Of a DNA stretch of 44,292 bases, positions 5,058 to 38,495 are shown piece by piece (the stretch's first letter is position 1; the number at the start of each line of letters is the position of its first letter). The notes below the pieces were generated by a model. It ran no database searches. It saw only the letters and a list, made by a program, of their open reading frames with translations, and was not told where the DNA came from. The position numbers and the translations under genes are program-made. Origin of the DNA: Gemmatimonadota bacterium (GTDB lineage Bacteria; Latescibacterota; UBA2968; UBA8231); contig PATE01000047.1 in assembly GCA_002712305.1 (NCBI GenBank), positions 1 to 44,292 of the forward strand, given 5' to 3'.

Positions 5058-6323
5058 TCACCGTCTTTCCAGGATCGTGACGGCACAGGTGCCGCCCGTT
5101 CCACCGATAGACTGGGTCATGCCCAGATGCAGATCCTGATTTGGGATCTGTCGCTCCTGGGCCGTCTGCCGCAACTGGTGCCAGATCTCGATCATCTGAG
5201 CGGTCCCGGTCGCGCCCACAGGATGTCCCTTGCACTTCAGACCACCCGAGGAATTGATCGGCTTCGAGCCGTCGATCTTAGTGAGGCCCTCTTCGACGGC
5301 TTTGTATCCCGTACCGGCCTCGAAGAATCCGAGGTCTTCCATGTGCATGATCTCGGCGATGGTGAAACAATCGTGCACTTCGGCCAGCTGGATGTCTGCG
5401 GGTGTAACACCCGCCATCTGGTAGGCCTCGCGGGCGGCGGCCCGCGTGGCTTCGAAGGAGGTCAGATCGTCGGCGGCGTGCAGCGCCCGGCCGCTGGCCT
5501 GACCCAGGCCGCGAACATGAATCGGTGCATCGGTGAAGGAGGCGGCCAACTCTTCGGCGACCAGCAGGACACAGGAGGCGCCGTCGCTGATGGGACTGCA
5601 GTCGAACAGATGCATGGGCCAGGCGATGGCAGGGTTCGCCCGGGGATCGGCCAGGAACTCTTTCTCCGTTTCCCAGGTGGGGGCCGGGTCGCCCTTCTGC
5701 GTCGCCCGCTCGATGCGGGATTTCATGATCTGCTGAATCGTGCGCTGGTGTTGGGCTTTGGGATTGGAACGTGCGTTGTTGTGACTCTTGATCGTCACAT
5801 TCATGAGATGTTCGCGGGTCGCGCCATATCGATCGAAATACGCCGTGGCCATGGCGCCAAAGACCCCGGGGAATGTGAATCCTGCAGATCGTTCGTAGGG
5901 GCTGGCCGCAAGGGCGAGTCCTTCAGCCACCTCTTCGGTCGATCGTTTCGACATCTCCTCGAAGCCGCCCACCAGTACCATGTCATAGTAGCCCGAGGCA
6001 ATGGCGAAGACTCCTTCCCGAAAGGCGAGGGCACTCGATGCACAGGCCCCCTCGGTTCGAGTGGCAGGTTTGGGGATCAGGCCGAGAGCATCGGTCAGGA
6101 TTGCGCCCCAATGGGACTGCTGTACGAACAGGTCGTTGGTGAAATTGCCGACGTAGAGTGCGTCGATATCGTTGGGGTCGAGGCCTTTGTCGACGGATTC
6201 GCGCATCTCCTCAAAGGCTTCGAGAAACAGATCCTTCGAGTCGCGATCGTCGAACATGCCAAAGCGCGACATGCCGGCACCGACAAGACTGACACCGCGG
6301 CCGAGTCTGCGAGTCTTAGACAT
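5058..6323 (-). CDS. SCP-x-type acetyl-CoA acyltransferase (thiolase)
   Basis: A 421-residue thiolase of the lipid-transfer/SCP-x branch. The start is the ATG at 6323 (MSKTRRLGRGVSLVGAGMSRF); longer in-frame starts lie inside the preceding gene. The nucleophile Cys is in EGACASSALAF near residue 92. The HDCFT motif and the C-terminal LKCKGHPVGATG carry the other catalytic residues. Such enzymes cleave beta-ketoacyl-CoA, often branched or steroid side chains, and need a DUF35 partner, which follows. The gene overlaps the end of the ABC binding-protein gene by 8 bp, so it appears to be translated as part of the transporter operon, which is unusual. Confidence 0.92.
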   Translation of the reverse strand: MSKTRRLGRGVSLVGAGMSRFGMFDDRDSKDLFLEAFEEMRESVDKGLDPNDIDALYVGNFTNDLFVQQSHWGAILTDALGLIPKPATRTEGACASSALAFREGVFAIASGYYDMVLVGGFEEMSKRSTEEVAEGLALAASPYERSAGFTFPGVFGAMATAYFDRYGATREHLMNVTIKSHNNARSNPKAQHQRTIQQIMKSRIERATQKGDPAPTWETEKEFLADPRANPAIAWPMHLFDCSPISDGASCVLLVAEELAASFTDAPIHVRGLGQASGRALHAADDLTSFEATRAAAREAYQMAGVTPADIQLAEVHDCFTIAEIMHMEDLGFFEAGTGYKAVEEGLTKIDGSKPINSSGGLKCKGHPVGATGTAQMIEIWHQLRQTAQERQIPNQDLHLGMTQSIGGTGGTCAVTILERR

Positions 6324-36812: not shown

Positions 36813-37442
36813 TCATTCTTCTTTGTAAGGCCAGACCGGGCGTTCGATGGCGAAGGCTTGTTTCACGTCGACGTAATCCAGCGCGCCGAGGCGGCCGATG
36901 GGTCTGAGTTTCGCCACGTCCACGTGACCCTCTGACAGCACTCGTTCGTCGATGTGAATGCCGACGACCTGGCCGAAGACGACGGTGTTGTCGTCCTCTT
37001 CCTCGTCACACGGCAACTTCAAGATCTGCGTCGTGCGGCATTCGAGATGCACGGGGCTTTCGGCGACTCGGCTCGGTGTCACGATCTGTGACGGGGCCTT
37101 CGTCAGCCCCGCGATGTCGAATTCGTCGACGTCTCTTGGCGCTGCGACGGAGGACGAATTCATCTGCTCGCGCAGATCCCAGGTGGCGAGATTGACGACG
37201 AACTCTCCCGTGTCCTGGGCGTTGGCGACACTGTCCTTGAGGCCGCCGGTTCGGTGTCCCGTCGTGGCGGCGAACATGACCTGGGGCGGGCCGTAGGCGA
37301 CGGCGTTGAAGAACGAATAGGGCGCCAGGTTGTCCACGCCCTCGGCGCTGCGCGTGGAGATCCAACCGATCGGCCGGGGGACGACCAGGTAGTTGAAGGG
37401 ATCCCGCGGCAGGCCGTGATCATCTTCGGGGCGATAGAACAT
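36813..37442 (-). CDS. flavin reductase-like (FMN-binding split-barrel) protein
   Basis: A 209-residue protein of the flavoredoxin/DIM6-NTAB family. It has the N-terminal PRPIGWISTRSAEGVDNLAPYSFFNAVAYGPP block that binds FMN, GEFVVNLATWDLREQMN in the middle and FGQVVGIHIDE near the C-terminus. It begins with the ATG immediately after the TAG of the ArsC-like selenoprotein gene (TAGATG), so both are translated from one message. It may supply reduced flavin or act as a ferric/flavin reductase; a direct link to ArsC is inferred only from adjacency. Confidence 0.9.
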   Translation of the reverse strand: MFYRPEDDHGLPRDPFNYLVVPRPIGWISTRSAEGVDNLAPYSFFNAVAYGPPQVMFAATTGHRTGGLKDSVANAQDTGEFVVNLATWDLREQMNSSSVAAPRDVDEFDIAGLTKAPSQIVTPSRVAESPVHLECRTTQILKLPCDEEEDDNTVVFGQVVGIHIDERVLSEGHVDVAKLRPIGRLGALDYVDVKQAFAIERPVWPYKEE

Positions 37443-37793
37443 CTAGTCGAGGATCTCTTCGACCTTCTCCGCCGGACGGGCGATGACGGCTCTGTCGCCG
37501 CGAATCACGATGGGGCGATTCATCACCTCCGGATGCTCCAGCAGCAGCGTGACGAGGGCATCGTTGTCGCCAATGTCCTCGATGTTGCGTCCGAGCTTCT
37601 CGAAAGAGCCGCTGTGCAGCATCTCTGCCGGCGCCAGGCCGAGCAGTTCGATGAAGCGGCGATAGTCTGCCTCGGAGGGTGGATTCTCGATATATTCGAT
37701 GACGTCGAACTCGACGTTGCGGTCGCGCAGAATCTCCTGCGCTCCCCTCGACTTGCTTCAATTGGGGTTGTGGTAGACGGTCACATCGGCCAC
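37443..37793 (-). CDS. arsC: ArsC-family reductase with selenocysteine (UGA) at the catalytic cysteine
   Basis: Reading from GTG 37793 (AGGAG seven bases upstream) to TAG at 37443-37445 gives 116 codons, the normal ArsC/Spx length, with a single in-frame UGA at 37758-37760. The start reads [22 protein letters not shown]: position 12, the catalytic Cys of ArsC (HNPxCSxSR), is the UGA. Downstream sequence is intact and family-like: [35 protein letters not shown] (Arg93) and [17 protein letters not shown] (Arg106), matching the ArsC arginines; the first expected Arg appears as His60. A stem-loop follows the UGA. Sec-containing arsenate reductase-like proteins have been reported from marine metagenomes. 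A TGC-to-TGA error is the main alternative. Confidence 0.85.
37722..37760 (-). promoter_or_regulatory. bacterial SECIS-like element with Sec UGA codon
   Basis: Immediately after the UGA the mRNA forms GCGCAG (37737-37742), loop GAGAUU (37731-37736), CUGCGC (37725-37730): a perfect six-pair stem. A lower GUC/GAC extension is separated by a one-sided bulge. The first loop base is G, 22 nt after the UGA, within the 16-37 nt window known for bacterial SECIS elements. SelB would bind this to insert selenocysteine. Confidence 0.7.
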
Positions 37794-37972
37794 GTGGAAG
37801 CTCCTTTCCTCTACGAGCGCGGCGAGACTTCTATGGTCGCTAAGAAACCAGGCTCTCGAGTGCTGTCAACGGCGTGAACCCCGTGAACCGCTGGCTCGAT
37901 GGCGGGCATCCATATTGTATTGTGCTCACCGAGCTTCTCAGGCAGTCCACCCACGAAACAGATGGTCCGTCG

Positions 37973-38495
37973 ATGCCCGAAGAACACAACGAGGACATCG
38001 CCGTGATGGCCCTCGATTACCCCTCGATGATTCATGGGCGAAGGACCTCTACGAAGGCTGTGGGTTCAGCGCACCCATGCCGAAGACCTCAGAAGAATGG
38101 GCCATGTTCTCCTCGCAGAATGCGGAGTTGCAGCAGGCGCTGGCCGATCTGAGTGCGACACAACAGCAACTGCTGCTGCAGGAGAAGATGGCTGGCCTGG
38201 GCAAACTCGTGGCGGGTATCGCGCACGAGATGAACACACTGGTGGGCGCGATCGAGTCTGCCCTGGATCTATCGAACGTCTCGCCAAGGCGATCGCCGGG
38301 CTGAGCACGTCCAATTCCACGGCTCAAGAGGCAGCTTCGCGAATCGCCACGGTGGTGAAGAGTCTGCGTGCTTTCGCCCGCCTTGATGAGGCGGAGTATC
38401 AGATGCTCGATTCCCTCTTCGATTTCGAATTCCGCCAGGAGGATGGGCGCGTGAAGTTGGGCATGGGGTTGCCGATGGACTACAGCGAGGTCTGA
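37973..38495 (+). pseudogene. decayed sensor histidine kinase
   Basis: Pieces of one histidine kinase gene lie in three frames. From ATG 37973 the first frame reads [18 protein letters not shown] second frame (about 38015-38275) reads [38 protein letters not shown] and [17 protein letters not shown], the last being the H-box. A third frame reads [21 protein letters not shown] and VVKSLRAFARLDEAEYQ, then jumps to FEFRQEDGRVKLGMGLPMDYS, an ATPase-domain end. About 100 residues of the ATP-binding domain are missing between them. Two frameshifts plus an internal deletion make it non-functional. Confidence 0.7.

Follow-up and report, generated by a model that had tools for sequence, protein, structure and literature searches.

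The arsC-like gene and its in-frame TGA

The DNA analyzed here, referred to as the window, is a stretch of 44,292 nt from a fragmented metagenome-assembled genome (MAG; 4.77 Mb, 146 contigs, 90.9% complete). On its minus strand lies a candidate gene for an arsC-like selenoprotein, which is followed without a gap by a gene with a flavin reductase-like domain. The following features were assigned:

37443–37793, minus strand: candidate arsC-like gene for a selenoprotein, 116 codons from the GTG start, then TAG, with a single in-frame TGA
37801–37806, minus strand: Shine-Dalgarno-like AAGGAG, 7 nt 5′ of the GTG start
37758–37760, minus strand: UGA codon 12, predicted to be read as selenocysteine (Sec), where HNPxCSxSR has its catalytic Cys; placed by alignment to Cys12 of R773 ArsC, TGA conserved in all close relatives
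37614–37616, minus strand: codon 60, His where R773 ArsC has Arg60, placed by alignment
36813–37442, minus strand: flavin reductase-like domain gene, downstream of arsC, with its ATG directly after the arsC TAG

Translation of the minus strand from 37793 to 37443 ends with ...EEILD* and contains a single internal stop, the TGA at codon 12. This bears out an earlier note on this DNA, which had described a 116-codon ArsC gene interrupted only by a UGA in place of the nucleophilic Cys of HNPxCSxSR. The assignment of codon 12 to that position agrees with the alignment to Cys-containing homologs and with the solved structures of R773 ArsC (1i9d/1jzw), which were matched with an E-value of about 3e-18 and place codon 12 on the catalytic Cys12. 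With the UGA read as Cys, the product reaches 52.9 bits with the Pfam family ArsC (PF03960; cut-off 24) and is, therefore, a member of this family; its score of 99.8 bits with the NCBIfam equivalog TIGR00014 falls slightly below the cut-off of 106.05. The note had further called length, start, stop and the later active-site arginines normal. This holds for the 116 codons, the GTG preceded by AAGGAG, the TAG, and R93 and R106, which are equivalent to R94 and R107 of R773 ArsC in the alignment, but not for Arg60, which aligns with His60 and leaves the arginine triad 60/94/107 incomplete. In R773 ArsC, Arg60 contributes to oxyanion handling. His60 occurs in all Sec forms of the Latescibacterota, and Arg is kept at position 60 in the Sec forms of the Myxococcota group. 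Purine-rich sites similar to AAGGAG are also found upstream of the arsC-like gene in relatives. If codon 12 is read through, the product carries Sec12 and zero cysteines.

Only the window and the nearest relative, L027, have the arsC-like and flavin reductase-like genes side by side, and the flavin reductase was consequently rejected as an operon clue. The arsC-like gene is an orphan. Its neighbors are not conserved beyond the genus; elsewhere they vary and include isopropylmalate dehydrogenase, a calcineurin-like phosphoesterase and PhyH. On the plus strand of the window, positions 38017–38492 contain what is left of a histidine kinase gene, partly deleted and with a broken frame, and an intact histidine kinase (482 aa, HisKA and HATPase_c) occupies the same place in L027 (838–2286, minus strand). 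A scan of the window against Rfam gave no match. Two other read-through ORFs were examined as possible further selenoproteins in the window; neither was convincing, and the first had no Pfam match.

Conservation of the TGA and the Sec machinery

Relatives were searched for the codon at position 12. The 12 closest ones (62–80% identity; GTDB species genomes, MAGs labeled Latescibacterota or Gemmatimonadetes) all carry TGA at codon 12 and nowhere else. TGA is also found at this codon in L041, a gene with 53% identity from a Deltaproteobacteria/Myxococcota MAG, and the remaining listed relatives from the GTDB species genomes, at most 53% identical, have Cys. Among 64 Latescibacterota genomes, the Sec form is present in 22 (window genome counted), each time with exactly one TGA at the same codon. 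Another 20 genomes have the Cys form only, with at most 45% identity, and both forms occur together in just two. Downstream of the UGA, comparison with the nearest relative yielded a dN of 0.136 and a dS of 0.947 (dN/dS approx. 0.14). Thus, the reading frame after the UGA is kept in relatives and, judged by these substitution rates, is under purifying selection.

These data bear directly on whether the TGA is real. A dead gene, or an assembly or sequencing error hiding a true TGC or TGT, could be imagined: Cys is one base substitution away, the assembly comes from a fragmented MAG and the neighboring histidine kinase gene is degraded. However, the same TGA recurs in the 22 genomes, which belong to many genera and were assembled independently, with the remaining frame intact. 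Since the TGA is conserved across genomes and dN is well under dS, we consider error and decay very improbable; together with chance, they can be regarded as effectively excluded on the strength of the comparison.

The earlier note had proposed searching the genome for selA, selB, selD and tRNA-Sec, and all four were found. The tRNA-Sec lies above the Rfam cut-off, and ARAGORN classified it as a tRNA-SeC bearing the anticodon TCA; SelB scored 350 bits (cut-off 242), SelA 461 bits and SelD 351 bits. The SelD frame is itself interrupted by a UGA close to the N-terminus (TCG-U-AAKVSP). The presence of the machinery and of a UGA-containing SelD establishes Sec as a trait of the lineage independently of the ArsC gene. 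The SelD UGA is located at 1528–1530 of L017 (G000 contig 93), and a strong hairpin, GUGAGUCC-GGUC-GGACUCGC, follows it.

Machinery and Sec-ArsC also coincide across the Latescibacterota. All 22 genomes with Sec-ArsC contain tRNA-Sec and/or SelA, and the 17 genomes in which both are missing have no Sec-ArsC (64 searched). No SelA match was obtained in two Sec-ArsC genomes and no tRNA-Sec match in one, all of them fragmented MAGs. In the L041 genome, SelA is present and no tRNA-Sec was confirmed, as the Rfam match is a tRNA-Ser according to ARAGORN. In the phylum of L041, SelA was rejected as a discriminator between Sec and Cys forms, because it occurs in 23 of 23 genomes tested, whichever form they carry.

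UGA has been reassigned in a few lineages, and decoding as Trp or Cys, by a suppressor tRNA or under an altered code, was, therefore, considered as well. Against this, neighboring genes and the machinery genes translate under table 11, the UGA sits exactly at the catalytic Cys, tRNA-Sec, SelA, SelB and SelD are all encoded, and the SECIS-like hairpins described below are confined to UGA genes. Such decoding is extremely improbable. Based on the machinery in the same genome, the TGA kept in 22 genomes and the Sec-specific hairpins downstream of it, we follow the Cys-to-Sec reading of the earlier note and predict Sec at codon 12 with very high confidence.

Two candidate hairpins downstream of the UGA

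Two hairpins were delimited after the UGA:

37724–37743, minus strand: hairpin 1, canonical bacterial SECIS candidate, supported by fold, synonymous-shuffle z and covariation
37702–37717, minus strand: hairpin 2, ACGUCG-AGUU-CGACGU, supported by invariant synonymous sites, Sec versus Cys counts and compensatory pairs

The published model of the bacterial SECIS has a stem of 4–16 bp and a loop of 3–9 nt at 16–37 nt from the UGA (PMC13188914, Fig. 2 legend), with a G in the first two loop positions and an MFE of at most −7.5 kcal/mol (PMC13188914). Hairpin 1 of the window conforms to this model in spacing, stem, loop size, G rules and MFE: its apical loop lies approximately 21–22 nt past the UGA and starts with G. 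Relative to shuffles of synonymous codons, the hairpin 1 region has the higher stability in each of the first 23 distinct Sec genes examined (mean z −1.68), compared with a mean z of −0.24 in Cys homologs and values around 0 in other stretches of the same genes; for the window gene alone, the effect is modest (z −0.84). Two-sided changes preserving pairing were observed in the stem, the register of which varies among sub-lineages. In a Sec-ArsC gene of the Myxococcota group (L203, G369 contig 181), the SECIS-like hairpin is very strong and its apical loop reads GGUC, as in SelD of the window genome.

Hairpin 2 is an addition to the published model. It was spotted because codons 27–30 (Val-Glu-Phe-Asp) show zero synonymous change in 23 genes, whereas the codons of most other invariant residues vary. 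Its definition rests on the Latescibacterota and L041; Sec genes of the L041 phylum, fetched later, served as the test. The 14-nt core is intact in three of these (L190, L196 and L197), and in L206 a C-G pair is replaced by U-A, a compensatory change. In L203, three pairs are changed on both sides, with all six pairs kept and a different peptide (LDYET). Altogether, all six pairs are formed in 28 of 28 distinct Sec genes when wobble is included, and purely by Watson-Crick pairs in 22, versus 0 of 91 Cys homologs reaching even five Watson-Crick pairs. No slid control and none of the 500 shuffles reached the covariation score of hairpin 2. However, the apical loop of hairpin 2 is 46 nt past the UGA and, thus, outside the 16–37 nt of the model, from which some bacterial elements are known to deviate (PMC13188914).

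The Cys-ArsC genes most closely related to L041 (L189, L191–L193) contain a damaged copy of hairpin 2 with the EFD peptide present. This copy is likely a fossil of a reversion from Sec to Cys; remnant SECIS structures in Cys genes have been reported for other families (PMC1794560).

Two readings of hairpin 2 were weighed. It is possible, and we hold this tentatively as the lesser of our expectations, that Sec is inserted but hairpin 2 stands outside the recoding signal, reflecting instead a DNA-binding site, preferred codons or peptide conservation within the Sec lineage. As DNA, the motif is palindromic almost throughout and is built from codons preferred in the pooled genes, and hairpin 1 satisfies the published model by itself. 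Moreover, the comparison holds only two to four independent contrasts, since Sec genes and Cys genes each group together in the tree, which is also compatible with one Sec clade (p-AU 0.19). On the other hand, this reading is opposed by six retained pairs in L203 despite a different sequence and peptide, by the compensatory pair in L206, and by a stem that is broken in the Cys homologs bearing the EFD peptide. The rarity of the motif in the genome counts against it as well. We also rejected the idea that the palindrome is a repeat of the genome or a SECIS of general use: there is one further genomic copy, apparently a chance occurrence, antisense and outside any selenoprotein frame. With moderate confidence, we therefore favor a composite SECIS of two hairpins, in which the canonical proximal hairpin is joined by an obligate second one, 41–56 nt past the UGA and with its loop beyond the published spacing, maintained by compensatory change across two phyla and decaying where Cys replaced Sec. 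If hairpin 2 does act in recoding, searches for bacterial SECIS elements restricted to 16–37 nt miss part of the signal. Judged by the texts of the older papers, among whose figures is a SECIS of an arsenate reductase, and within an incomplete coverage of the literature, the second hairpin seems to be previously undescribed.

Predicted function and relation to known ArsC selenoproteins

The arsC-like gene is predicted to encode a single-domain selenoprotein of the ArsC/glutaredoxin fold. Translation would not terminate at codon 12; instead, SelB with Sec-tRNA-Sec would insert Sec, guided by the downstream hairpin region, i.e., by canonical hairpin 1 and probably with help from the Sec-specific hairpin 2. 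The Sec12 selenolate would act as the attacking nucleophile, as Cys12 does in ArsC, and would be held by R93 and R106. Since the protein has no cysteine, an external thiol, e.g., glutathione/glutaredoxin, would be needed to resolve the Se adduct. By analogy with the glutaredoxin-linked arsenate reductase R773 ArsC (PDB 1i9d/1jzw), it should be a single-selenol enzyme resolved in this way. The two proteins share the fold family, the nucleophile position and the R94/R107 equivalents; in contrast to R773 ArsC, the window protein has Sec for Cys, His60 for Arg60, a shorter C-terminus and no ars operon.

The substrate may be arsenate. That the protein is the arsenate detoxification reductase of the cell is nevertheless unlikely. 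Glutaredoxin-type ArsC is the best-matching family and R93 and R106 are kept, but the genome has an acr3-arsR operon with its own LMWP-type reductase. This separate operon and His60 weaken an arsenate role, as does the score slightly under the NCBIfam arsC cut-off. Furthermore, ACR3 was found in 6 of 22 Sec-ArsC genomes versus 13 of 42 others, i.e., there is no link by co-occurrence. Arsenic detoxification as the main task of Sec-ArsC is, therefore, doubtful, and the context suggests a different or broader role in thiol/oxyanion reduction. The operon is found at 5167–7061 of L184 (G000 contig 90) in the order acr3, arsR and LMWP-type reductase (VLFLCTGNSCRSQMAEGW...), followed by a URO-D-like gene.

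ArsC-like selenoproteins were already known from marine metagenomes, as the earlier note had mentioned: 14 arsenate-reductase sequences with UxxS were described from the Sargasso Sea in 2005 (PMC1088965), and arsenate-reductase selenoproteins were listed as ‘ArsC 1’ in the GOS data in 2008 (PMC2398784). Later reviews also list ArsC-type selenoproteins. Compared by description, this marine COG1393 family resembles the window protein in belonging to ArsC, in Sec at the catalytic Cys, in the UxxS motif (U12-SKS) and in a SECIS-like hairpin after the UGA; the differences are whole Latescibacterota genomes, the second hairpin and His60 in the present case (PMC1088965, PMC2398784). Other sequenced bacteria have ArsC-related selenoproteins as well, namely Desulfotalea, with a distant ArsC homolog in Desulfuromonas and reported switches between Cys and Sec (PMC1794560); these belong to other lineages and were likened by description only. 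Since ArsC selenoproteins with UxxS have been known since 2005, our finding is a new lineage for a known family. Our literature search, the coverage of which was incomplete, returned no paper naming Latescibacterota together with selenoproteins.

The gene thus documents the Sec trait in a candidate phylum whose members are known mostly through MAGs, at a locus which standard annotation would truncate or omit. Why enzymes switch between sulfur and selenium can be studied in the natural series that its close Cys and Sec relatives provide. A more distant ArsC-like ORF, L221 (G370 contig 92), reads FHKPT-U-STSK and likewise has a TGA at the catalytic position.
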